Source of the DNA: Xanthomonas sacchari
GTDB lineage: Bacteria > Pseudomonadota > Gammaproteobacteria > Xanthomonadales > Xanthomonadaceae
Length of the DNA stretch: 64,000 nt
Direction: 5' to 3'
NCBI RefSeq assembly: GCF_040529065.1
Contig: NZ_CP132343.1
Coordinates: 1,612,001-1,676,000 of the forward strand
The notes beneath the pieces are model-generated. The model worked only from the letters and a program-made list of their open reading frames with translations, had not been told where the DNA came from and made no database searches. Positions 14,102-24,687 of this stretch are shown here, one piece after another. Made by a program: the position numbers and the translations under genes. Positions within the stretch are counted from its first letter, which is position 1; each line of letters starts with the position of its first letter.

Positions 14102-15178
14102 TCAGCGCCGCACGAACCGGTAATGCGCCACACCCCACTGCTGGCCCTGTTCGTAGCCGAACAGTTCCGCGCAGGCCATCCAGAACATGCGCCAGCGTTG
14201 CCACCAGATCTTGGCGTCGGCGCCGTAGGTGGCCTGCAGCACCGGCATCAGCGCGTCGCGGTGGCGGTCCTGGTTGTGCAGCCAGGCATTGGCGGTCTTC
14301 TCGTAGTGCTGGCCGGACAGCAGCCAGCGGCGTTCGATCGCCAGGTCGTCCTGGAACTGCAGCAGGGTGTCGGCCGCCGGCATCAGGCCGCCGGTGAAGA
14401 AGTGCCGGCCCATCCAGTTGTCCTCGCCCTGCACCTCGAACGGGTAGGCCAGGTCGCGATGGCAGAAGATGTGCACGAACAGCCGCCCGCCCGGCACCAG
14501 CCAGTGGCTGACGCGCTTGAGCAGTTCGCGGTAGTTGCGCATGTGCTCGAACATCTCGATCGAGACCACGCGGTCGTAGCTCTCGGTCGGCAGGGTTAGG
14601 GTGTTGGCGTCGTGGGTGATCACCTTGACGTTGCTGAGCCCGCGCGCGCGGCACTGCGCTTCGATGTGCTCGCGCTGCGGCCGCGAGTTGGACACCGCGG
14701 TGATGCGCGCGCCGGGGAACTGCTCGGCCATCCACAAGGTCAGCGAGCCCCAGCCACAGCCCAGTTCGAGGATGCGCTGGCCATCGCGCAACTGCGCGCG
14801 TTCGCCGTACAGCTGCAGCATGCGTTCCTCGGCCGCATCGAGGTCGGGCGTGGTCGCGTCCCAGTAGCAGCTGCTGTACTTCAGGCGCTTGCCCAGGCAC
14901 AGCTCGAAGAAACGTGGTGGCACTTCGTAGTGCTGGCGGTTGGCCGCATCGGTCTCGATGGCGATGGCGCTCTCGCGCAGCGATTCGATCAGCAGGCGCT
15001 GGCGTTCCCAGGCCGCGTCGGCGCCGCCGGCGCGCTCCTCGCGCAGGCGCTGCGCGCACAGCCGGCGCATCGCCGCGCGCAGCATGGCGTCGGGCAGCAG
15101 GCCGGATTCGGCCAGCCGCGTGGCCAGTGGTTCGGCCGGCGCGGCGGGCGGGGAAGAGGTGGCGAAGGTGCTGGACAT
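14102..15178 (-). CDS. SAM-dependent methyltransferase, cyclopropane synthase/coclaurine methyltransferase-like
   Basis: 358 residues. SAM-binding motif LELGCGWGSLTLW (residues about 138-150), preceded by NRQHYEVPPRFFELCLG, which parallels the HYDLGN segment of cyclopropane synthases. Later segments SIEMFEHMRNY, FVHIFCHRDLAYPFE and HFFTGGLMPAADTL are typical of the second, coclaurine-N-methyltransferase-like group found in Cfa clusters. It probably methylates a membrane lipid chain or head group; the substrate is not known. Last gene of the leftward lipid operon, 21 bases after DUF1295. Confidence 0.85.
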   Translation of the reverse strand: MSSTFATSSPPAAPAEPLATRLAESGLLPDAMLRAAMRRLCAQRLREERAGGADAAWERQRLLIESLRESAIAIETDAANRQHYEVPPRFFELCLGKRLKYSSCYWDATTPDLDAAEERMLQLYGERAQLRDGQRILELGCGWGSLTLWMAEQFPGARITAVSNSRPQREHIEAQCRARGLSNVKVITHDANTLTLPTESYDRVVSIEMFEHMRNYRELLKRVSHWLVPGGRLFVHIFCHRDLAYPFEVQGEDNWMGRHFFTGGLMPAADTLLQFQDDLAIERRWLLSGQHYEKTANAWLHNQDRHRDALMPVLQATYGADAKIWWQRWRMFWMACAELFGYEQGQQWGVAHYRFVRR

Positions 15179-15199: not shown

Positions 15200-15982
15200 T
15201 CAGTGCCGCGGCGGCATGGGGAAGAAGGCGCTGGTGCTGCGCTGGTAGTCGGCGTAGTCGCGGCCGCGCGAGCGCAGGGCCTGCTGTTCGGTGTAGGGAA
15301 TGCCGGTGACGCGGTACAGGAAGGCGAACATCAGCAGCGGCCCCAGCGCGGCCACACCGACCCACAGCGCGCCGCTGCCCACCGCCAGGAACACGTAGGC
15401 GAACCAGTGCACGAATTCGAAGAAGTAGTTCGGATGCCGCGAGTAGCGCCACAGGCCTTGGCGGCAGGTCTTGCCCTTGTTCGCCGGGTCGGCGCGGAAC
15501 GCGGCCAGTTGCCGGTCGGCCAGGCTTTCCCCGCCCACCGCGACCAGCCAGGTCGCCACCGCCAGGGTGGTCCACACGCTCCACTGCGGCTGCGGATTGT
15601 GCGCGGCCACCGACAGCGGCACCGCGAACGCCAGCACCACCAGCGCCTGGCCGAGGAAGAACGCCAGGAACTTGCGCTGGTCGCCTTGCCAGTGCTCGCG
15701 CAGGGCGCGATAGCGGCCGTCCTCGTGGGCATCGCCGAACACGCGCACGCCCAGGTGCCAGGCCAGGCGCGCGCCCCACAGTCCGCCCAACACGGCGGTC
15801 AGCACCCGCGGCAGCAGTGCGCCGTCGGCGCGCCAGGCGCAGTACACCGCAGTCAGCGCCATGCACGCCGACCACAGCACGTCGACCACACCGGCGTTGC
15901 GGGTATGCCGCTGCCAGGCCCAGCCGGCGAGCATGACCAGCACGGTGAACACGCCCACATGCAGCAGCGGCCAGGCGTTCAT
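15200..15982 (-). CDS. DUF1295 family membrane protein (steroid 5-alpha reductase-like)
   Basis: 260 residues with about six or seven transmembrane helices. The C-terminal part has the reductase/ICMT-like signature: GLWRYSRHPNYFFEFVHWF, then TGIPYTEQQALRSRGRDYADYQRSTSAFFP. In this fold the segment binds NAD(P)H or SAM at the membrane face. DUF1295 proteins sit next to Cfa-type methyltransferases in many bacteria, suggesting reduction or modification of an unsaturated lipid chain; this is inference. Overlaps the DUF2878 stop by 4 bases. Confidence 0.85.
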   Translation of the reverse strand: MNAWPLLHVGVFTVLVMLAGWAWQRHTRNAGVVDVLWSACMALTAVYCAWRADGALLPRVLTAVLGGLWGARLAWHLGVRVFGDAHEDGRYRALREHWQGDQRKFLAFFLGQALVVLAFAVPLSVAAHNPQPQWSVWTTLAVATWLVAVGGESLADRQLAAFRADPANKGKTCRQGLWRYSRHPNYFFEFVHWFAYVFLAVGSGALWVGVAALGPLLMFAFLYRVTGIPYTEQQALRSRGRDYADYQRSTSAFFPMPPRH

Positions 15983-16524
15983 CGCGCCGCTCCGGTTGCC
16001 GGAAGGGCCGGCGTGGCGACCATCAGGCGGCGTGTCGCCAGGCTCAGCAAGGTCAGCGCCGCGGCCCAGCCGACGGCCAGTGCCAGCAGCGCCTGCGGCA
16101 ACGGCTCAACCAGCGTCACCGCCTGCCAGCCGCGCGCGGCCAGCACGTAGCCCAGCGGGCCGGCAGTGGCGCCGAACAGCGCCGCACGCCAGAGATGGCG
16201 CATCACCCATGCCAGCGAGTGCTGGAAGGTCAGCGCGAAGCCGGCCCACAGCGCCAGGATCCACAGCGGCGGCCACGGTGACGGCGGCGCGGCGGCGTAG
16301 CGCACCCAGTCGCCGGCGCGCATGGCGGCATCCACGCCGGCGCCCAGGGGCAGTACAAGCGCCACCAGCGCGGCGTCGCCGCGGGCGCGGCGCCGCGGCC
16401 ACAGTTGGTAAAGCGCGAACAGCGCCAGTGCTGCCGGACCGGCCCAGGCCAACCCGTGCGCGGCGCCGACCACCGCTGCCAGCCACAGCCCCTGCAGGGC
16501 GAGGTAGTTGACGAGGTTGTTCAT
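15979..16524 (-). CDS. DUF2878 family membrane protein
   Basis: 181 residues with about five hydrophobic helices. DUF2878 proteins of this size are found almost only beside cyclopropane synthase/DUF1365 genes and have no known activity. The start ATG 16524 overlaps the cfa stop by 4 bases (ATGA). It is followed by DUF1295 with the same overlap, so translation is coupled on both sides. A longer reading upstream would run into cfa and is rejected. Confidence 0.78.
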   Translation of the reverse strand: MNNLVNYLALQGLWLAAVVGAAHGLAWAGPAALALFALYQLWPRRRARGDAALVALVLPLGAGVDAAMRAGDWVRYAAAPPSPWPPLWILALWAGFALTFQHSLAWVMRHLWRAALFGATAGPLGYVLAARGWQAVTLVEPLPQALLALAVGWAAALTLLSLATRRLMVATPALPATGAAR

Positions 16525-17834
16525 GCGTCGCCCGCCAGCGCCGGGGCGAACTGCGCCGGCCGCGCGCGCGGCTTGCTTAGCCACAGGTGCACGTCGCCGA
16601 TCGAGCGCTCCAGGAAGCCGCCCTCGCAATAGGCCAGGTAGAACTCCCACATGCGCATGAAGCGTTCGTCGTAGCCGAGCGCGCGCACCTGCGGCAGCCT
16701 GGCCATGAAGCGCTCGCGCCAGGCGCGCAGGGTGAGCGCGTAGCTGGGGCCGATGTCTTCAAGATTGAACAGGCGCAGGTCGCTGGCGCGGCCGATCGCC
16801 CCGGTCATTGCTGCCACCGAGGGAATGAAGCTGCCGGGGAAGATGTGGCGCTTGATGAAGTCCACCGACTTGAGCGCCTGCGCGTAGCGGTGATCCTCGA
16901 TGGTGATGGCCTGGATCAGCGCCTGGCCGTCGTCCTTGAGCAGGCTGCCGACCTTGCCGAAGTAGGTGTCCAGGTACTGGTGGCCGATCGCCTCGATCAT
17001 TTCGATCGAGACCAGGCGGTCGTAGCGGCCATTCAGATCGCGGTAGTCGCGCAACAACACCTCGACTCGGTCCGACAGCCCGGCGGCGGCGACGCGCTGC
17101 CGGGCCAGTTCGTACTGCTCACGCGAGATGGTGGTGGTGGTGACGCGGCAGCCATGGTGCTTGGCCGCGTGCAGCGCGAAGCCGCCCCAGCCGGTGCCGA
17201 TCTCGACCAGATGATGATGCGGCTGCAGATCGAGCTTGGCGCAGATGCGCTGCAGCTTGCGCTCGGCCGCGCGCTCCAGCGCAGCCTCGCCCAGGGCGGC
17301 GTCGGCATCGCGGAAGATCGCTGAGGAGTACATCAGGTTGCGATCCAGGAACAGCTCGAACAGCTGGTTGCCCAGGTCGTAGTGCGCGGCGATGTTGCGG
17401 CGGCTGCCGGCACGGGTGTTGCGCGCGAACGCATGCAGGCCGCGCATCGCCAGGCCGCCAAGCCGGGCCAGGCCGGTCTCCATCGCGTCCAGGCGGTCGC
17501 GGTTGCGCACCAGCAGGCGCACCAGCGCAACCAGGTCGTCGCAGTCCCACAGCCCATCCATGTACGCCTCGCCGACGCCGACGCTGCCGTTGAGCGCGGC
17601 CTGGCGGTAGAAGCGCGGATCGTGGATGCGCAGATGCGCCTGCAGCACGTCGGCATCGGCGCCGGCATCGCCCAGCGTGGTCAGCGTGCCGGTCTCCTCG
17701 ATGCGCAACTGGCCCTCGCGCAGGCCATCGAGGGTGGCGAGCAGACGCTTCCGCAGCAGGCGGTCGAGCCCGCGCAACGGCGGTGCGGCCGGGGCCAGCG
17801 CGGCGGCGGAAGAGGGCGCGTGCGGAGCGTTCAT
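16521..17834 (-). CDS. cfa: Cyclopropane-fatty-acyl-phospholipid synthase family protein
   Basis: 437 residues, close to the family norm of about 400-420. The N-terminal lipid-binding part (about 20-140) is followed by AAHYDLGNQLFELFLD (149-164), the SAM motif VEIGTGWGGFALHAA (210-224), SIEMIEAIGHQYLDTYF and the catalytic-region HIFPGSFIPSV. The enzyme transfers a methylene or methyl group from SAM to a cis double bond in phospholipid acyl chains. In Rhodobacter a relative (UfaM) instead makes methyl-branched chains on the way to furan fatty acids, so ring formation is likely but not certain. Central gene of the operon, overlapped at both ends. Confidence 0.9.
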   Translation of the reverse strand: MNAPHAPSSAAALAPAAPPLRGLDRLLRKRLLATLDGLREGQLRIEETGTLTTLGDAGADADVLQAHLRIHDPRFYRQAALNGSVGVGEAYMDGLWDCDDLVALVRLLVRNRDRLDAMETGLARLGGLAMRGLHAFARNTRAGSRRNIAAHYDLGNQLFELFLDRNLMYSSAIFRDADAALGEAALERAAERKLQRICAKLDLQPHHHLVEIGTGWGGFALHAAKHHGCRVTTTTISREQYELARQRVAAAGLSDRVEVLLRDYRDLNGRYDRLVSIEMIEAIGHQYLDTYFGKVGSLLKDDGQALIQAITIEDHRYAQALKSVDFIKRHIFPGSFIPSVAAMTGAIGRASDLRLFNLEDIGPSYALTLRAWRERFMARLPQVRALGYDERFMRMWEFYLAYCEGGFLERSIGDVHLWLSKPRARPAQFAPALAGDA

Positions 17835-18700
17835 CGGCTTTCTCGCGGAAGGGAGTGGTCGGGGTGGTCGTGCACCGGGTTGCCGCGCAGCCACAGCCGC
17901 AGGGCCTGCCAGTGGATCTTGGCCATGACCTGCAGGGTCATCGCCGGATAGCGGAGCAATGCCTGCGCCAGGCTGGCGCCGTCGAGCGCGCGGCGCTGCA
18001 GGACGAGGGTGGCGTCGAAGCGCCGTCGCACGGTTGCGGGCGCAGGATCGAGCACGTCCATGTGCACGCGCAGTTGCGCACCGGGTTCGCTGAAGCGCCA
18101 GGCGTAGGTGTGCGCCATCGCCATGAACGGCGACACATGGAAGCGTTTGGCGAAGCGCCAGGCGTGGGTGGCGCCGTGGCTGCGCGCCTCGGCCATCGGT
18201 AGCACGTAGGCGTGGCGCTGCCGCCACGGCGTGTTGGTGATCTCGGCGACGATGCTGTGCAGGCGCTGCTGCGCGTCGTGGCAGTAGTAGAACGTGACCG
18301 GATTGAAGCAATGGCCGAAGTAGCGCAGGTGGGTGAGCATGCGCACCGGGCCGAGCGGGCGTTCGCCGGTGTGCTGCTGCACGCGGTCGCGTACCGCTTC
18401 GTCCAGCGGCTGCGCAGGGTCGCCGAGGTAATCGCTGCGGCGGAACTCGGCCAGGTTGCGCCGGTTCACCGACCACAGCCAGCGCCGCGCGAACACCTGC
18501 TCCAGTTCGTCCAGGTCCAGGTACAGCAGGAACAGCGGATAGCGGAACGCCAGCGCCTTGGGTGCGTAGCGGCGATGCCGCACCCAGCCGGTGTACACCG
18601 CGCTGTGCAGGCCGTGCAAGGTCGTGCCCGCCGCCGCCGACGTTGTCGAGACGGCGCCAGCCGGCGGGGCGGACACGGCAGCACGGCGCATCAGTGTCAT
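17831..18700 (-). CDS. DUF1365 family protein
   Basis: 289 residues. Hallmarks: LHSAVYTGWVRHRRYAPKALAFRYPLF near the start, LTHLRYFGHCFNPVTFYYC in the middle, and KRFHVSPFMAM. The last two hold the conserved His/Cys/Asn cluster. No enzyme activity is proven. DUF1365 genes are tied to cfa and to this FAD-oxidoreductase type across Proteobacteria and belong to the sigmaE/ChrR regulon of Rhodobacter, so a role in lipid remodelling under oxidative stress is a fair inference. Overlaps by 4 bases with the genes on both sides. Confidence 0.87.
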   Translation of the reverse strand: MTLMRRAAVSAPPAGAVSTTSAAAGTTLHGLHSAVYTGWVRHRRYAPKALAFRYPLFLLYLDLDELEQVFARRWLWSVNRRNLAEFRRSDYLGDPAQPLDEAVRDRVQQHTGERPLGPVRMLTHLRYFGHCFNPVTFYYCHDAQQRLHSIVAEITNTPWRQRHAYVLPMAEARSHGATHAWRFAKRFHVSPFMAMAHTYAWRFSEPGAQLRVHMDVLDPAPATVRRRFDATLVLQRRALDGASLAQALLRYPAMTLQVMAKIHWQALRLWLRGNPVHDHPDHSLPRESR

Positions 18701-19950
18701 GACCAGGGTACCCCCAGCGCGGCGGCGACGTCGACCGCGCTGCGCAGGCCGTCCTCGTGGAAGCCGAAGCCCCAGCCGGCGCCGGCGAACCAGGTGTTGC
18801 GCTGGCCTTGGATCTCGCCCTTGCGCGCCTGCGCCGCCACCGATGCCTGGGTCTGCAGCGGATGCCGGTAACGCATGCGCCGCAACACCTTGGCCGGATC
18901 GATCGCATCGCTGCGGTTGAGGCTGACGATGAACGGCTGCGGCGCCTGCAGCGACTGCAGTGCGTTCATCCAGTAGCTGACCGTACACGGCGCGTCCGGA
19001 TCGGCCGGCACGTGCGCGTTCCAGGCGGCCCAGGCGCGGCGGTCGCGCGGCAGTACGCGCGCGTCGGTGTGCAGCACGGTCTCGTTGTCCTGGTAGCCGA
19101 TCGCGCCGAGGATCGCGGTTTCGGCGTCGCTGGGATCGGTGAGCAGGCGCAGCGCGTCGTCGGCATGGCAGGCCAGCACCGCATGGTCGTATTGCTGCGT
19201 GTCGGCATCGCAGGCGATGGCGACGCTGCCGTGCGCGGTGCGCTGTATCGCGCGCACCGGCGTGCCGAGCCGCTCGCGCACCCGCCAGCGGCTGCGCAGC
19301 GCGCGCACGTAGCTGTTGGAGCCGCCGCGCACCACCCGCCACTGCGGGCGGCCGCTGACCTGCAGCATGTGGTGGTTGGCCATGAAGCCGATCAGCTGAC
19401 GCATCGGGAAATCGAGGATCTGCCGCGACGGCGAGGACCACAGCGCCGAGGCCATCGGTACCAGGTGCGCGTCGCGGAACACCTGGGAGTAGCCGTGGCG
19501 CTGCAGAAATTCGCCGAGGGTGAGTTGCGCCAGGGAAGCGTCATGCAGCACCTGCGGCGCCTCGCGGTAGAACCGCCGCAGGTCGCGCAGCATGCGCCAG
19601 AAACGCGGCGACAGCAGGTTGCGGCGCTGGCAGAACAGCCCATCGAGCGTGCCGGCGTTGTACTCCAGCCCGGTGCGTTCCTCGTGCACCGAAAAGCTCA
19701 TCGTGGTCGGCTGCGACTCCACTCCCAGCCGCGCGAACAACGCGCTCAGCAACGGGTAGTGCTCCGGATTGAACACGATGAAGCCGCTGTCCACCGCGTA
19801 TTCCGCGCCGTCCAGTTCGATCGCATGGGTATGGGTATGGCCGCCGAGATAGTCGGCCGCTTCGTACAGCGTCACCTCGTGGCGCTGCGACAGCAGCCAC
19901 GCCGCGCCGAGGCCGGCGATCCCCGAGCCCACCACCGCGATCCGGCTCAT
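18697..19950 (-). CDS. FAD-dependent oxidoreductase (amine oxidase/desaturase-like) of the cfa cluster
   Basis: 417 residues. Rossmann FAD motif IAVVGSGIAGLGAAWLL at residues 4-20, acidic ribose-binding end at E30, and GGHTHTH right after. SGFIVFNPEHYPL is the conserved signature of this COG2907 group. A C-terminal FAD-contact segment, GAGWGFGFHEDGL, is followed by a membrane-proximal end. The group is likely to oxidise or desaturate acyl chains, but its substrate is unknown. It resembles carotenoid desaturases in fold only; no crt gene is nearby. Second gene of the operon, overlapping both neighbours by ATGA. Confidence 0.87.
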   Translation of the reverse strand: MSRIAVVGSGIAGLGAAWLLSQRHEVTLYEAADYLGGHTHTHAIELDGAEYAVDSGFIVFNPEHYPLLSALFARLGVESQPTTMSFSVHEERTGLEYNAGTLDGLFCQRRNLLSPRFWRMLRDLRRFYREAPQVLHDASLAQLTLGEFLQRHGYSQVFRDAHLVPMASALWSSPSRQILDFPMRQLIGFMANHHMLQVSGRPQWRVVRGGSNSYVRALRSRWRVRERLGTPVRAIQRTAHGSVAIACDADTQQYDHAVLACHADDALRLLTDPSDAETAILGAIGYQDNETVLHTDARVLPRDRRAWAAWNAHVPADPDAPCTVSYWMNALQSLQAPQPFIVSLNRSDAIDPAKVLRRMRYRHPLQTQASVAAQARKGEIQGQRNTWFAGAGWGFGFHEDGLRSAVDVAAALGVPWS

Positions 19951-20924
19951 CGGGCACGCGCCTGCGCGCGCACCAGCCCGGCCGGCACCGGCTTGAGCTC
20001 GCGGATCACGCGCGTCCACGACAGCGCCTTCAGTCCGTACCAGGTCAGGTCCAGCTCCCACCAGCGGAAGCCCTGGCGCGCGGCGCCGGGGAAGAAATGG
20101 TGGTTGTTGTGCCAGCCTTCACCGAAGGTCAGCAGTGCCAGCCACAGGTTGTTGCGGCTGTCGTCGCGGGTGTCGAAGCGGCGGCTGCCGAAGCGGTGCG
20201 CCAGCGAGTTGATGGTGAAGGTGGCATGGAACAGCGCCACGGTGGAGACGAAGAAGCCCCACACCAGCAACTGCGGGCCATCGGTGCCGAGCTGCGGCAC
20301 GTGCCGCTGCAGCCACCCGCCGAGCAGGAACAGCGCCAGCGCCAGCAGCACCGGCAGCAGCAGGTCGAAGCGGTCGAGGAAGCGCAGTTCGGGGAAGCGG
20401 CGCAGGTCCGGGATCGCCTCCCAGTCGGTGCGGAAGCCGCGCGGGGTCAGGAACCAGCCGCTATGGCTCCACCAGAAGCCGTGCTGGCGCGGCGAATGCG
20501 GGTCAGCCGGGGTGTCGGTGTGGCGATGATGGTTGCGGTGGTGCGCGGCCCACCACAGCGGCCCGCGCTGCACGCAGGTGGCGCCGATCGCAGCGAACAG
20601 GAACTGCACCGGGCGCGAGGTCTTGAACGCGCGGTGGGCGAAATAGCGGTGGTAGAAGCCGGTGAGCGCGAACATGCGCACCGCGTACATCGCCACCGCC
20701 ATGCCCACGGCGAACCACGACACGCCGACCCAGAACACGCCCAGGCACGCCAGGTGCAGGGCGATGTAGGGCGCGGCGCGCAGCCAGTCGATGCGGTCGG
20801 CGCGCGCCGGATCCAGTTCGATCTCGGCACTGGTGTCGAACCAGCGGCGCAAGGTGCGCAGGATGCGGCCACGCGGCGCAGGCGGCGATGTGGAAGGGCG
20901 GGGTTCCGGAACGGGACTCGGCAC
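19947..20924 (-). CDS. Acyl-CoA/acyl-lipid desaturase (delta-9 type, membrane di-iron)
   Basis: 325 residues. Three histidine boxes are present in the right order: HRYFAH (92-97), HHRNHH (128-133) and WHNNHHF (271-277), which ligate the di-iron centre. Four transmembrane helices fit the desaturase topology. It inserts a cis double bond into saturated acyl chains using O2 and an electron carrier, supplying the substrate for the cyclopropane synthase downstream. First gene of the seven-gene operon. The only suitable start is GTG at 20924, with no clear ribosome binding site; no in-frame ATG lies upstream before a stop. Confidence 0.9.
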   Translation of the reverse strand: MPSPVPEPRPSTSPPAPRGRILRTLRRWFDTSAEIELDPARADRIDWLRAAPYIALHLACLGVFWVGVSWFAVGMAVAMYAVRMFALTGFYHRYFAHRAFKTSRPVQFLFAAIGATCVQRGPLWWAAHHRNHHRHTDTPADPHSPRQHGFWWSHSGWFLTPRGFRTDWEAIPDLRRFPELRFLDRFDLLLPVLLALALFLLGGWLQRHVPQLGTDGPQLLVWGFFVSTVALFHATFTINSLAHRFGSRRFDTRDDSRNNLWLALLTFGEGWHNNHHFFPGAARQGFRWWELDLTWYGLKALSWTRVIRELKPVPAGLVRAQARAR

Positions 20925-20955
20925 AAGCGCGTCTCATTGGGGGACTTGGGGAGCG

Positions 20956-20982
20956 ATACGGGCGAAACCGGAAGACGGATGC
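20956..20982 (-). promoter_or_regulatory. Putative ECF-sigma promoter of the lipid operon (GCATCC-N16-CGTAT)
   Basis: On the minus strand, GCATCC (20977-20982) is followed after exactly 16 bases by CGTAT (20956-20960), with 31 bases from there to the desaturase start. The same motif, spacing and leader length are found before the exported-protein gene at 24186. C-rich -35 ATCC and -10 CGTAT-like boxes are the style of ECF promoters, and an ECF sigma gene lies 2 kb away. Confidence 0.6.
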
Positions 20983-21203
20983 ACCCAAGTCGCATTTCCC
21001 CTGCACGGCTGCGGGCGTGGCATCGCGGGCCACGACGGCGCAGCGCAGGCGTCGCGCGATCGGAAGATCTGGCTGTCGCGCGGATGCGCGACGGCGGCGG
21101 CGATGTTGCCTGCGCGCGAGTGGTGGGCGGGTGAATGCGCGCCGGGTTCTTGCAGTTGAGCGCAGCACGGACTGCCTGCGGCGCGTGCAAGGCGCCTGGA
21201 ACT

Positions 21204-21536
21204 GCCCCTCTCCCATCGGGAGAGGGGTTGTGGGGTGAGGGTGCGGCGCGAAGCGTCTCGCGGAAACAGGTCCACGAGGCCTCGCCCGTACCCTCATCCG
21301 CCCCTTCGGGGCACCTTCTCCCGATGGGAGAAGGGAATCCATGGTCCCGGTGAGAGAAGGGTTGTCTACGGTGCGAGTTGCAGCGTGCTGAGGCGTATTG
21401 CCCCTCTCCCATCGGGAGAGGGGTTGGGGTGAGGGTGCGGCGCGAAGCGCCTCGCGGAAACAGCTCCACGAGGCTGCGCCCGTACCCTCATCCGCCCCTT
21501 CGGGGCACCTTCTCCCGATATGGGAGAAGGGGTTGT
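21204..21536. repeat. Two tandem 196-bp units: palindromic repeat plus duplicated anti-sigma 3' end
   Basis: Both units begin CCCCTCTCCCATCGGGAGAG and contain GTACCCTCATCCGCCCC. At 21361-21390 the first unit carries a degenerate copy of the anti-sigma 3' end, which on the minus strand still reads STLQLAP-stop. The intact gene end with the same residues follows the second unit at 21537. The block therefore spans a gene end and its adjoining repeat, copied together. Confidence 0.8.
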
Positions 21537-22325
21537 CTACGGCGCCAGCTGCAGCGTGCTGATGCCGCCCTTGGCCACGACCGGGCCGGTGGCCACGCCG
21601 CCGGGCGCGCCGCCGGGCGGTTCCATGGTCACCGCCAGCACCGCGCCGTCGCTGAGCATGGGCATCAGCGCATCGGGGATGCGCGCCACGCGCGCCTTGG
21701 CCTCATCGAACACGCCCATCGAGCGCGCCTTGCCGTCGGCCGGGATCAGCCACAGCTCGGGCACGCGCGCACTGTCGTGGGTGCCGCCCAGCGGGGTGAG
21801 GGTAATGCTGCGCTTGTCGGCGTCCATCAGCGCCACGTAGCCGGGCTTGCCGTCGTCCTGCATCAGCGTGGAGGTCATCGCGATGCCGCTGGGCTTGGGG
21901 GTGGTGGTGGCGACCGGTGGCGGCTGCGCGGCCGGCGGCGGCACCGGCGCACGCGCCAGCAGTAGCGCCAGCAGGCAGGCGGTGGCGGTGGCGAAGCCGC
22001 CGGCGCTGAGCCAGCGCCAGGTCCGCACGCTGTCCCAGAACCCGGGCGCGGCGGGCCGCGCGCGCGGCGTCGGCGCATCCAGGCCCAGCGAGGCACGGAT
22101 GCGCACCCACACGCGTTCGGGCACCTCCACAGGCGCGATCTCGTCGGCCAGCGGCATCAGGTGCTGCTGCCACTGCAGCACCGCCTCGGCGAAGGCGCGG
22201 TCGCTGTCGATGCGCGCTTCGGCGGCGCGGCGCTCCTGCGCGTCGAGCACGCCGAGCACGTATTCGCCGGCCAGCACGTCGCGCGGCGGCGGGGTTTCCT
22301 GCGGATCGGGCACGGAGGCGTTCAT
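21537..22325 (-). CDS. Anti-sigma factor, RskA (anti-sigma-K) type
   Basis: 262 residues. The N-terminal sigma-binding part (about 15-85) has EYVLGVLDAQERRAAEARI and a DEIAPVEVPERVW segment. One transmembrane helix follows at about 106-126, then a Pro-rich linker and a periplasmic RskA-type domain (ALMDADKRSITLTPLGG, PELWLIPADGKARSMGVFD, LAVTMEPPGGAPGG). It should hold the ECF sigma factor inactive at the membrane until a stress signal leads to its release or proteolysis. The start overlaps the sigma stop by 4 bases. Its last codons are duplicated downstream in a repeat. Confidence 0.9.
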   Translation of the reverse strand: MNASVPDPQETPPPRDVLAGEYVLGVLDAQERRAAEARIDSDRAFAEAVLQWQQHLMPLADEIAPVEVPERVWVRIRASLGLDAPTPRARPAAPGFWDSVRTWRWLSAGGFATATACLLALLLARAPVPPPAAQPPPVATTTPKPSGIAMTSTLMQDDGKPGYVALMDADKRSITLTPLGGTHDSARVPELWLIPADGKARSMGVFDEAKARVARIPDALMPMLSDGAVLAVTMEPPGGAPGGVATGPVVAKGGISTLQLAP

Positions 22326-22879
22326 CGTTCCAGGCACGCTTTCAGTTTGGCCAGGCCGCGGCGGATCCAGCTCTTGACCGTGCCCAGCGGCGTGCCGCTG
22401 CGGTGGGCCAGTTCCTCGTAGGTGATGCCGTCGAAGAACGCGGTGCGGATCAGCTCGCCGCGCGGCGGCTCCAGTTCGCCCATGCACACGTCCAGGCGCC
22501 GTCCCGCCACCCGCCACTCGGTATCGGCGAGCGGGTCGCGGCCTTCGTCCTGCAGTTCACCGGCGTCGTCCAGCGCCACCGACTGCCGCGCCGGGGCGCG
22601 TGCGCGCAGATGGTCGATGGCCTTGTTGCGGGCGATCATGGTCAGCCAGGTCAGGCCGCGCGCGCGTTGCGGGTCGAACTGCGCGGCCTTGCGCCAGACC
22701 GAGGAGAACACTTCCTGCAGCACGTCCTCGGCTTCGCCGCGCTGCGGCACGATGCGCAGGCACACGCCGAACAGGCGCGAGGCGGTGGTGCGGTACAGGC
22801 GTTCGAACGCAGCGCTGTCGCCGGCGGCGGTGGCGACCAGCAATTGTCCTGCTTCGTCGTGATCGGGCGACTCGGTCAT
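22322..22879 (-). CDS. ECF-family RNA polymerase sigma factor (SigK-like, RskA-paired)
   Basis: 185 residues. Region 2 (about 22-95) has AAFERLYRTTASRLFGVCLRI, EDVLQEVFSSVW and LTWLTMIARNKAIDHLR. Region 4 (about 128-182) has the helix-turn-helix ITYEELAHRSGTPLGTVKSWIRRGLAKL for -35 recognition. It directs transcription of a small regulon; the adjacent lipid operon is the likely target, from the shared GCATCC-N16-CGTAT promoters. In Rhodobacter and relatives similar sigma factors answer singlet oxygen and control cfa/DUF1365 genes. It is followed by its anti-sigma gene with a 4-base overlap. A one-off match in each promoter box sits just before its own start. Confidence 0.92.
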   Translation of the reverse strand: MTESPDHDEAGQLLVATAAGDSAAFERLYRTTASRLFGVCLRIVPQRGEAEDVLQEVFSSVWRKAAQFDPQRARGLTWLTMIARNKAIDHLRARAPARQSVALDDAGELQDEGRDPLADTEWRVAGRRLDVCMGELEPPRGELIRTAFFDGITYEELAHRSGTPLGTVKSWIRRGLAKLKACLER

Positions 22880-22937
22880 GCCGGGAGACGGTGGCGAAGG
22901 TCGGCGCGATGCTACAGGCTTTCGCCGCGGCCGTCGC

Positions 22938-23309
22938 TCAGGCGCGCTGGCGCCGCCACAGGATGAGCGCGGCGAGCAGCAGGACGATCTCGAACGCGGC
23001 CAGGCCGGTCGTGGTCGGGCCCACCGGCCACAGCCGCAGCAGGCTGGCGCTGCGGTAGAGCACGATGGGCACGTAGAACGCCAGCGCCAGGAGCAGGCCG
23101 GTGCGCAGTTGTCCGGTGCGGGCGAAGTAGCCGAACAGGAAGGCCATGCCCAATTGCAGGCCGCCGTAGATGACCAGGTATTCGGACTGGCCGGAGCGGT
23201 CCAGGCCGACATAGCCCACCGCGGCGGCGGTCTGCGCCGGCAGCAGCGTGCACCAGATGGCCAGGAGCGCGTAGAGCGCGGCGTTGAACCACAGGTAGGC
23301 CTTGGCCAT
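22938..23309 (-). CDS. DUF4345-type small membrane protein
   Basis: 123 residues with four predicted transmembrane helices and the family stretch SGQSEYLVIYGGLQLGMAF. Function unknown. It ends 58 bases before the sigma factor start on the same strand and may be the first gene of the sigma/anti-sigma transcript. ATG 23309 is chosen since the helix begins a few residues later; upstream codons in the same frame are Arg/Ala-rich and unlike the family. Confidence 0.72.
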   Translation of the reverse strand: MAKAYLWFNAALYALLAIWCTLLPAQTAAAVGYVGLDRSGQSEYLVIYGGLQLGMAFLFGYFARTGQLRTGLLLALAFYVPIVLYRSASLLRLWPVGPTTTGLAAFEIVLLLAALILWRRQRA

Positions 23310-23397
23310 GAGGTGTCCTCGTCGATGCGCGGGCGATGCGCAGGCATGGTTGTAGCGGCTGCGGCGATGGCCGGCGTGAATGCGCTGGCGGCGCGGC

Positions 23398-24186
23398 TCA
23401 GCGCGCGCTGCATTGCGCGACCAACGGTTGCTGCAGCGCCTGCTCCCAGGCGCCGGCATCGGCCTGGCCGCGCAGGCGTTCGGGGAATTCGATGCGCACG
23501 GTCGGGTAGCGGCCGCGCGCGTCGCGGATGTTGCCGACGCCGCGGAACTCGAGCAGGCGCCGGTCCTGGCGTGCATAGGCGACGCTGAGGTCGGGCAGCA
23601 GCGTGCCGTACCAGGCGGCCAGGCTCAGGGTGTAGCGCTGCACCTCGGCATCGGCCGGGCCGGGCGTGATGCGGAAGTCGAGCGTGCGCAGTTCGCTGGG
23701 CAGCGCGAAGGCGATGCGCTGCGGCGCGCCGCTGCCCAGGCTGTCCCAACGCTGGCGCAGATAGGCGTCGAAACCGGCGTCGATCACCTGCGCCTGCTCG
23801 CTCTTGGGCAGTGGCGCACGCCGTTCGGCCTGGCCCTTGGCCTGGCTGAACATCTCGCGCCCGCCGCCGCTGCGGCGCACGCCCTCGCGGTAGCCGCTGC
23901 GCGCATCGATCAGTTCGAAGTCCGGCGCGGCGCTGCCGTCGTCCACGCGCTTGCGTGCGAATGCGCTGCCATCGGCGCACTGGTACAGCACCACGCGCGC
24001 GCCATCGTCGCGGACCCAATGGCTTTCGCGGTACAGCACCTGCTTGCTGTCGGCGGCATAGGCGATGCCCTCGTAGTGCAGCATCGCCCTGGCCGGTGCC
24101 GCGGCGACGAGCGCGGCGGTACTCAGCACCAGCGCCAGCGGCAGGTGCGGTCGGGTGAACGGGAAGGCGGCGGTCGACGTCGGCAT
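23398..24186 (-). CDS. Exported protein of unknown function in the ECF-sigma cluster
   Basis: 262 residues with a clear signal peptide (hydrophobic about 15-32, cleavage near APARA-M). The mature part starts MLHYEGIAYAADSKQVLYRESHW and is rich in beta-prone segments. A single Cys lies in LYQCADGSAFARK and one near the C-terminus. I do not recognise the family. GGAG is placed 9-10 bases before the ATG. It is preceded by the same GCATCC-N16-CGTAT motif as the lipid operon, so it is probably a regulon member acting in the periplasm or outer envelope on altered lipids; this role is inference. Confidence 0.75.
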   Translation of the reverse strand: MPTSTAAFPFTRPHLPLALVLSTAALVAAAPARAMLHYEGIAYAADSKQVLYRESHWVRDDGARVVLYQCADGSAFARKRVDDGSAAPDFELIDARSGYREGVRRSGGGREMFSQAKGQAERRAPLPKSEQAQVIDAGFDAYLRQRWDSLGSGAPQRIAFALPSELRTLDFRITPGPADAEVQRYTLSLAAWYGTLLPDLSVAYARQDRRLLEFRGVGNIRDARGRYPTVRIEFPERLRGQADAGAWEQALQQPLVAQCSAR

Positions 24187-24217
24187 GCACGGCGCTCCGG
24201 TGGGATGACACCAGGAC

Positions 24218-24244
24218 ATACGCGGCCGGCGCCGATCCGGATGC
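24218..24244 (-). promoter_or_regulatory. Putative ECF-sigma promoter of the exported-protein gene (GCATCC-N16-CGTAT)
   Basis: Minus strand: GCATCC at 24239-24244, 16 bases, then CGTAT at 24218-24222, with 31 bases to the ATG at 24186. Boxes, spacing and leader length are identical to those before the desaturase operon, while the 16-base spacers differ, as expected for a functional promoter rather than a copied repeat. Confidence 0.6.
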
Positions 24245-24276
24245 GCCCGCGGTGGCGGCCGCGTGGCGCGGGCGTC

Positions 24277-24687
24277 TCAGCGCAGGACGATGCAGTCCAC
24301 CGGGCAGGCCGGCAGGCACAGTGCGCAGCCGGTGCACAAGGGTGCCAGCACCGTGTGCATGTGCTTGGCGCCGCCGACGATGGCGTCCACCGGGCAGGCC
24401 TGGATGCACTTGGTGCAGCCGATGCAGTCGGCCTCGACCACCCACGCCACCTGCGGCGGCGTGTGCGTGCCGCGGCTGCGGTCGTAGGGCAGGACGGGGA
24501 CCCCGAGCACCCGCGCCAGGGCGCGCGCGCCGGCGTCGCCGCCGGGCGGGCAGCGGTCCACCTGCGCCGTGCCGGCGGCCATCGCCTCGGCATAGGGGCG
24601 ACAGCCATCGAACCCACACTGGCCGCATTGGGTCTGCGGCAGCAGGCGATCGAGACGTTCGAGCAGGGCGTCGTGGGTGGGCGTCAT
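24277..24687 (-). CDS. rnfB: RnfB/RsxB-type iron-sulfur protein (stand-alone)
   Basis: 136 residues. Four-cysteine Fe-S domain (C21, C24, C29, C46 in CGQCGFDGCRPYAEAM...RCPPGG), then two ferredoxin 4Fe-4S motifs, CIGCTKCIQACPVD and CTGCALCLPACPVD. RnfB normally feeds electrons through the Rnf/Rsx membrane complex, but this version lacks the N-terminal membrane anchor and no rnfA, C, D, G or E is in the window. Stand-alone RnfB near metG is usual in Xanthomonadaceae; the electron acceptor is unknown. Confidence 0.88.
   Translation of the reverse strand: MTPTHDALLERLDRLLPQTQCGQCGFDGCRPYAEAMAAGTAQVDRCPPGGDAGARALARVLGVPVLPYDRSRGTHTPPQVAWVVEADCIGCTKCIQACPVDAIVGGAKHMHTVLAPLCTGCALCLPACPVDCIVLR

Follow-up and report, generated by a model that had tools for sequence, protein, structure and literature searches.

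A SigK/RskA-kind sigma gene of Xanthomonas sacchari lies between two identical sites that are probably its promoters, with a promoter code possibly shared by exchangeable regulators

The stretch of DNA analysed here (the window, 64 kb) belongs to the single-contig genome (4,957,212 bases) of Xanthomonas sacchari, in which it occupies C1:1612001-1676000. It carries a gene for an extracytoplasmic function (ECF) sigma factor followed by the gene of an RskA-type anti-sigma, and on both sides of this pair a minus-strand site of the form GCATCC-N16-CGTAT, one (P1) before a gene for an exported protein and the other (P2) before a group of lipid genes headed by a fatty acid desaturase (Table 1). An initial annotation had located these two sites and seen no third in the window, and exactly two matches were indeed found in the 64 kb, at 20956-20982 and 24218-24244. 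As it had described, the spacer is of 16 bases in both and differs in sequence, and 31 bases separate the last base of CGTAT (20956 and 24218) from the start codon (GTG at 20924 and ATG at 24186, respectively). The GTG start of the desaturase, on which one of these distances depends, is strengthened by five Xanthomonas loci showing the same GTG-CCG-AG after GGAGAA (read by eye). The identification of the pair between the sites as an ECF sigma and an RskA-type anti-sigma also holds, the Pfam sigma domains and PF10099 being above their cut-offs.

Table 1. Features of the sigma locus and of the adjoining lipid operon (positions in the window)
Feature	Position	Strand	Basis
P1, putative GCATCC-N16-CGTAT promoter before the exported gene	24218..24244	-	Exact match; 0/11 motif columns variable in 18 genomes
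Exported protein, 262 amino acids, function unassigned	23398..24186	-	Signal-peptide-like N-terminus by eye; weak LolA/RseB-like beta fold prediction
Small membrane-like protein, DUF4345-like	22938..23309	-	Pfam 21.6 bits, below cut-off 26.5
ECF sigma factor, SigK/RskA kind, 185 amino acids, Cys132 and Cys182	22322..22879	-	Pfam Sigma70_r2 and r4_2 above cut-off
Anti-sigma, RskA_C domain	21537..22325	-	PF10099 72.1 bits, cut-off 29.4; 4-base overlap with sigma gene
P2, putative GCATCC-N16-CGTAT promoter before the lipid operon	20956..20982	-	Exact match; genus conservation
Fatty acid desaturase, GTG start	19947..20924	-	Domain match
Flavin adenine dinucleotide (FAD) amine-oxidase family protein	18697..19950	-	UfaD-like in kind, family membership only
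DUF1365 protein (start codon approximate)	17831..18694	-	UfaO-like in kind, family membership only
Cyclopropane-synthase-like methyltransferase (CMAS)	16521..17834	-	Domain match
DUF2878 protein	15979..16524	-	Domain match
DUF1295 protein	15200..15982	-	Domain match
Second CMAS-like methyltransferase	14102..15178	-	Domain match

When the window was shuffled 100 times with its dinucleotides preserved, the motif occurred 0.02 times on average and no shuffle held two or more matches. The scan of the whole 4.96-Mb genome proposed in the initial annotation gave four exact matches, the downstream genes of which were listed, against none for the reversed control. Since the pattern was picked after the sites had been seen, the shuffle figure alone overstates the significance and conservation is the real test. 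A coincidence of two identical sites in a GC-rich genome would be in agreement with this post hoc choice, with the 49 places found by a one-mismatch scan of the genome (14 for the reversed control) and with the fourth exact match (L004), which looks unrelated: it lies about 250 bases before an open reading frame that by eye resembles a chemotaxis receptor gene and has no NCBIfam match at 1e-10, and no look-alike of the site was found among the other genus genomes examined. Besides the two window sites, 28 of the 49 places (L003, L004 and L145-L170) were read and the other 19 were left unread; with this level of noise, the one-mismatch scan was rejected as sole evidence for targets.

Conservation was followed in a sample of 20 genomes of the genus, the window's own included, from which the loci were extracted by the exact pattern, none being missed by it. 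The sigma gene and the desaturase are found together in 18 of these genomes, and all 18 keep both sites. Over these 18 genomes, none of the 11 motif columns is variable at P1 or at P2, whereas at P2 the variable columns amount to 11 of 16 in the spacer and to 60 and 57 of 60 in the 60-base flanks, and at P1 to 8 of 16 in the spacer and 59 and 54 of 60 in the flanks. The two remaining genomes (G009 and G014) are devoid of the sigma gene, of the desaturase and of any exact motif match. Boxes that remain invariant in 18 genomes while their flanks vary, and that are found before the same genes in other genera, leave coincidence as a scarcely credible explanation.

In order to follow the motif outside the genus, a desaturase alignment was used for a search that confirmed at least 585 loci, the best 80 of which were retained; one (L096) was too short for the upstream counts, which therefore concern 79 loci. 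The regulator kinds were typed by eye from the flanks as RskA-like (20 loci), ChrR-like (10 loci, H-x3-C-x2-C type) or other (49 loci, counting six with an ECF match left untyped: L105, L131, L133, L134, L136 and L140), and anti-sigma models were run for the window (RskA_C) and for locus L110 of Stenotrophomonas sepilia (Cupin_7 and TIGR02451 ChrR). GCATCC-N16-CGTA is present within 330 bases before the aligned desaturase start in 15 of the 20 RskA-type, 9 of the 10 ChrR-type and 11 of the 49 other loci, for a shuffle expectation of 0.02 over the 79 loci and no occurrence of the reversed motif. When spacer lengths from 5 to 30 were scanned, a length of 16 was found in 35 loci and lengths of 9, 17 and 27 in one locus each. 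The exported gene carries the N16 motif in 9 of 11 RskA-type, 4 of 6 ChrR-type and 3 of 4 other loci. In S. sepilia L110, the same operon is adjoined by a sigma-E/ChrR pair, with the motif before the sigma gene, the exported gene and the desaturase; its ChrR reaches 160 bits with TIGR02451 (cut-off 124.5), matches Cupin_7 and bears the zinc-binding motif. The same desaturase operon and motif were also seen in two betaproteobacterial loci of Achromobacter (L123 and L142) with a sigma 40-41% identical to that of the window, which suggests a transfer between classes.

The closest solved structure is Mycobacterium tuberculosis SigK (4nqw) for the window sigma and Rhodobacter sphaeroides RpoE for the S. 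sepilia sigma, the two proteins being 32% identical. Cys132 and Cys182 of the window sigma align with the cysteine pair of SigK (Cys133/Cys183), reported in 94% of ECF18 and 56% of ECF19 proteins (PMC7509140), and a C-terminal cysteine pair 50 residues apart is present in 20 of 20 RskA-type and 0 of 10 ChrR-type sigmas. In the window anti-sigma, neither an H-x3-C-x2-C motif, nor a cysteine in the first 90 residues, nor a Cupin_7 match was found, which is not what is expected from a ChrR, and its hydropathy profile, with a maximum of 1.89 at residues 106-124, fits one membrane segment. By these sequence features the window pair is of the SigK/RskA (ECF18/ECF19) kind and not of the sigma-E/ChrR kind.

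Outside the window, GCATCC-N16-CGTAG at C1:2898847 precedes msrP (NF003767, 475.9 bits, cut-off 207), which is followed by msrQ (NF003831, 207.2 bits, cut-off 130). The motif stands before msrP in all 20 genus genomes, with N16 in the 18 sigma-bearing ones and N15 in the two sigma-less ones (L181 in G014 and L190 in G009), as if the decay of the promoter had begun after the loss of the sigma. None of 200 bootstrap trees of msrP, a single-gene tree with weakly supported forks, joins G009 and G014 as sisters, so that this slip of the spacer probably happened twice. These data support msrPQ as a further target of the sigma factor. The third exact genome match (L003/L244, C1:2116689-2116715, plus strand) falls within the opening codons of a gene of the YgfZ family (TIGR03317), in antisense orientation, and 95 bases downstream of the site comes a DUF1674 gene that is followed by genes for two sdh membrane subunits. 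GCATC[CT]-N16-CGTA is found in ygfZ of all 18 sigma-bearing genomes, 14 of them with the exact motif and the others with GCATCT (G003 and G010), CGTAC (G017) or CGTAG (G001). The -10 box is broken only in the sigma-less G009 and G014, in which CGTA is lost with the change of a tyrosine codon from TAC to TGC. Within the -35 box, aspartate is encoded by GAT in 20 of 20 genomes, for 82 GAT versus 320 GAC in the gene copies. A chance match was rejected for this site, which recurs in the genus (14/20 exact) and is broken in both sigma-less genomes. DUF1674-sdh (P4, msrPQ being P3) is possibly also a target, as a candidate less sure than msrPQ.

Taken together, the invariance of the motif amid variable flanks, its loss from the two genomes that also lost the sigma gene and its presence before the same genes in other genera are in agreement with the ECF promoters postulated in the initial annotation. 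Further support comes from Stenotrophomonas maltophilia KJ, in which the deletion of chrR raises the expression of the nine-gene cluster smlt2375-smlt2367 by 165 to 697 fold in a sigma-dependent manner, according to the available text on a single RNA sequencing experiment (PMC11832516). We consider it highly probable that the SigK/RskA-kind sigma uses as its promoters the two sites on either side of its gene, the pairing of sigma and promoter being drawn from comparison of sequences. The sites could also be genuine ECF promoters read by another ECF sigma, the neighbouring one having other targets. Several ECF sigmas are indeed encoded in the window genome (seven matches to the window sigma), and the motif is not peculiar to the SigK/RskA kind, since it also accompanies ChrR-type sigmas in relatives. 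On the other hand, the sites and the sigma gene were lost jointly in two genomes of the genus, and a search at E <= 1e-30 revealed no ChrR-linked sigma in the window genome, in G013, G002, G009 and G014, in G035 (same family) or in G062 (X. prunicola). Moreover, of the four genomes having a SigK/RskA-kind sigma and no close desaturase (L054, L056, L057 and L059), two carry the motif upstream of that sigma gene, at about 110 and 200 bases, in the absence of the lipid operon. Control by another sigma is therefore improbable, though less so than a third possibility, namely that the motif binds a repressor or an activator. Conservation alone cannot separate a promoter from an operator, but two short boxes with a nearly fixed 16-base spacing, a variable spacer and a position 31 bases before both start codons are not what an operator would lead one to expect, and the shape equals that of the promoter TGATCC-N16-CGTA derived from chromatin immunoprecipitation for PSPTO_1043 of Pseudomonas syringae, a sigma of the RpoE/ChrR kind encoded with PSPTO_1042 (available text of PMC5507510). 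We regard an operator as very improbable. The resemblance of GCATCC-N16-CGTA to this sigma-E/ChrR-kind promoter is a partial one, with the same spacing and -10 box and four of the six -35 bases in common.

Behind P1, the exported, DUF4345-like and sigma genes follow one another at distances of 88 and 58 bases, and the sigma and anti-sigma genes overlap by 4 bases. P1 thus probably heads one four-gene transcript (exported protein, DUF4345-like protein, sigma, anti-sigma), in which case the promoter of the exported gene would also be that of the sigma factor itself and likely autoregulatory. Neither sigma-70-like promoters nor intrinsic terminators were found in 20880-24300, which is neutral with regard to a long P1 transcript. 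The regulon of at least eight genes put forward in the initial annotation is consequently retained in its promoters and amended in its extent, with probably four genes behind P1, the sigma and anti-sigma genes among them, and an extension to msrPQ and perhaps to DUF1674-sdh. In the mechanism that we propose, the RskA-type anti-sigma, probably anchored in the membrane, would hold the sigma factor until a stress signal, most likely oxidative stress or else lipid damage, releases it. The free sigma would read GCATCC as -35 and CGTA as -10 box across the 16-base spacer, and would transcribe (i) its own gene with the three others of P1, giving a positive feedback; (ii) the P2 operon, the products of which (desaturase, FAD oxidase, DUF1365, two CMAS-like, DUF2878 and DUF1295 proteins) may modify membrane lipids; (iii) msrPQ, for the repair of oxidised methionine in the periplasm; and (iv) possibly DUF1674 and the sdh genes, from inside ygfZ.

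Several observations weigh against this scheme. The sigma-less genomes of the sample are two only. No motif precedes the desaturase in 38 of the 49 other loci, and among the untyped ones, L131 and L140 (RskA-like) and L134 (ChrR-like) are all without it. All six strict misses among the typed loci (L066, L067, L068, L069, L070 and L074, five of Xanthomonas and one of Rhodanobacter) read GCATCT-N16-CGTA, as does the desaturase promoter of L023; the widened motif GCATC[CT] covers 30 of 30 typed loci, and the strict counts are given first because this form was adopted after the six misses had been seen. The N16 motif is missing before the exported gene in 2 of 11 RskA-type, 2 of 6 ChrR-type and 1 of 4 other loci. 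Outside the genus, it precedes msrP in none of the 10 loci of a first set, and in a second set of 13 loci (L237 repeating L191) eight have N16, one has N17 and four have none, while msrP itself was not recovered in 3 of the 16 genomes searched, both Stenotrophomonas among them. P4 is kept as a candidate only since its site lies in coding sequence, the conservation of which may be explained by protein constraint. Finally, the motif was found within 330 bases upstream of the sigma gene in 1 of 20 RskA-type versus 9 of 10 ChrR-type loci, and for this reason the autoregulation would rest on read-through from the exported-gene promoter over the gaps of 88 and 58 bases.

Because the same operon and the same motif adjoin a sigma-E/ChrR pair in other Lysobacterales, the regulator may have been exchanged under a fixed promoter. 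On a tree of the desaturase (31 rows), in which the window desaturase places beside Xanthomonas, two changes of regulator kind, at the least, are forced by well-supported branches, and the simplest reconstruction needs five; the bootstrap trees give five to seven changes, 0% of them a single one, and shuffled labels give 8.6. When 15 genomes were searched at E <= 1e-30, the kinds being assigned by the sigma sequence alone, both kinds were found in 4 of 15, namely G061 (S. rhizophila), G070 (Luteimonas 9C) and the two Rhodanobacter genomes G076 and G077. The ChrR-linked kind only was found in G060, G068, G069, G074, G078 and G079, and the RskA-linked kind only in G066, G067, G071, G073 and G075. 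The recognition helix P-L/I-G-S/T-x-K-S-x-I/L/V-R-R is common to all 21 aligned sigmas (11 RskA-type including that of the window, and 10 ChrR-type), and this may help to explain how one -35 box could be read by both kinds; in the window sigma it reads PLGTVKSWIRR, to be compared with NLSTIKSRMR in M. tuberculosis SigK. The genes controlled by SigK in M. tuberculosis differ from those of the window. We lean, with moderate confidence, towards a promoter code that stayed fixed while the sensors were exchanged, in which case the lipid operon, the exported protein and partly msrPQ would keep GCATCC-N16-CGTA while the pair was replaced several times, from ChrR/sigma-E to RskA/SigK or the reverse, via genomes holding both. 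The mixture of RskA and ChrR labels could instead result from the transfer of whole blocks, operon and regulator together, an alternative that concerns the exchange and not the promoters. In its favour, the tree covers a single gene, the desaturase, and leaves 13 of 28 inner branches open; a transfer of the operon would mix the labels too, and the sigma gene of several loci is at a distance of 2 to 3 kb from that of the desaturase. Since changes of label are seen even in the tree of an operon gene, with two changes forced and no bootstrap tree with one, and since 4 of the 15 genomes searched hold both kinds, we judge block transfer rather unlikely, and an exchange of the regulator alone is preferred.

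The closest described system is that of sigma-Ec/ChrR in S. maltophilia, in which, from the available text, a gene for a periplasmic protein comes first, followed by genes for a desaturase, an FAD oxidoreductase, a hypothetical protein, two cyclopropane fatty acid (CFA) synthases and membrane proteins (PMC11832516). The order described for smlt2375-smlt2367 (PMC11832516), on which the comparison was based, matches that of S. sepilia L110, and judged by its place in L110 and 41% identity, the exported protein of the window is a probable counterpart of smlt2375. The S. maltophilia system differs from the window in its ChrR-type anti-sigma, in having chrA as third gene, in a sigma gene transcribed away from the operon and in a lipocalin gene at the end of the cluster (same source); no lipocalin gene was found at the window locus. 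In P. syringae, a binding peak of PSPTO_1043 was described before its own gene, and a target locus carries a cyclopropane synthase gene; its -35 box, in contrast, starts with TG and not GC, its partner is of the ChrR type and its lipid locus starts with phrB, as given in the available text (PMC5507510). In R. sphaeroides, sigma-E/ChrR controls a fatty-acid methylase, the FAD-type desaturase UfaD and the DUF1365 protein UfaO (PMC6852236, PMC7380195), and UfaD and UfaO make furan fatty acids (PMC7380195). The P2 genes for CMAS, FAD oxidase and DUF1365 proteins form a CFA/furan-type set as in sigma-E/ChrR regulons, with control by the sigma presumed, and since genes of UfaD- and UfaO-like kinds are present behind P2, a methylated or furan fatty acid is a plausible product of this operon. 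In contrast, the R. sphaeroides ChrR is a zinc/cupin protein responding to singlet oxygen, and no acyl desaturase of the window family is mentioned in the parts of these papers that were available (PMC6852236, PMC7380195). M. tuberculosis SigK/RskA (PMC7509140) resembles the window pair in that SigK is the best solved relative of the sigma (4nqw), by the aligned cysteine pair and by the RskA_C anti-sigma.

A systematic study of the sigma factors of Xanthomonas campestris pv. campestris exists, the gene numbers of which, in the available text, could not be mapped to the window sigma (PMC6085468). In the literature searched, mostly without subscription papers and without supplements, we found no published regulon for an RskA-type xanthomonad sigma, and no paper that links such a sigma to this lipid operon or describes an exchange of this sort. 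ECF sigma regulons whose promoter and output resemble those of sigma-E/ChrR are a known kind; what appears new from the sequences compared is that a pair of the SigK/RskA kind would have taken over this promoter code or would share it. From the observation of two sites, the regulon would be extended to three promoters, or perhaps four, and defined by them, and in it an RskA-type xanthomonad sigma is putatively linked to membrane-lipid remodelling and to the repair of periplasmic methionine. Should the exchange be true, two kinds of anti-sigma would let one output answer different signals. Genomes with either pair, both or none form a natural series for the replacement of a sensor without rewriting of promoters, in which it can be asked whether sigmas about 32% identical truly share one promoter.

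Other places carrying the motif were considered as targets and rejected. A PA0069-family radical-SAM gene was set aside because, of the 18 genus loci read, no more than 7 have the motif at its start (as does L218 outside the genus). A GCATCC-N16-CGTA look-alike recurs at the lysyl-tRNA synthetase gene (by eye; L264-L270) in at least seven genus genomes and is absent from the window genome; its CGTA is separated from the start codon by only some 8 bases. Of three other 27-mers that recur, one or two members each were read, and these fall within open frames or have no clear gene behind them; one of the three 27-mers is also found in the sigma-less G014. As a separate observation, GCATCC-N16-CGTAC (L146, C1:148389-148415, minus strand) lies 86 bases before a gene for a secreted protein that resembles tetratricopeptide-repeat proteins (by eye), and this 27-mer recurs in at least four genus genomes, the families being grouped by eye. 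Within the window, the region 21205-21560, from the anti-sigma to the desaturase, holds two direct copies of 104 bases, 92% of which agree. Inverted repeats of the CCTCTCCCGATGGGAGAGGGG type go with them and match three times in this region and nowhere else in the window; the repeat pair is possibly a small mobile element or one resembling repetitive extragenic palindromic (REP) sequences.

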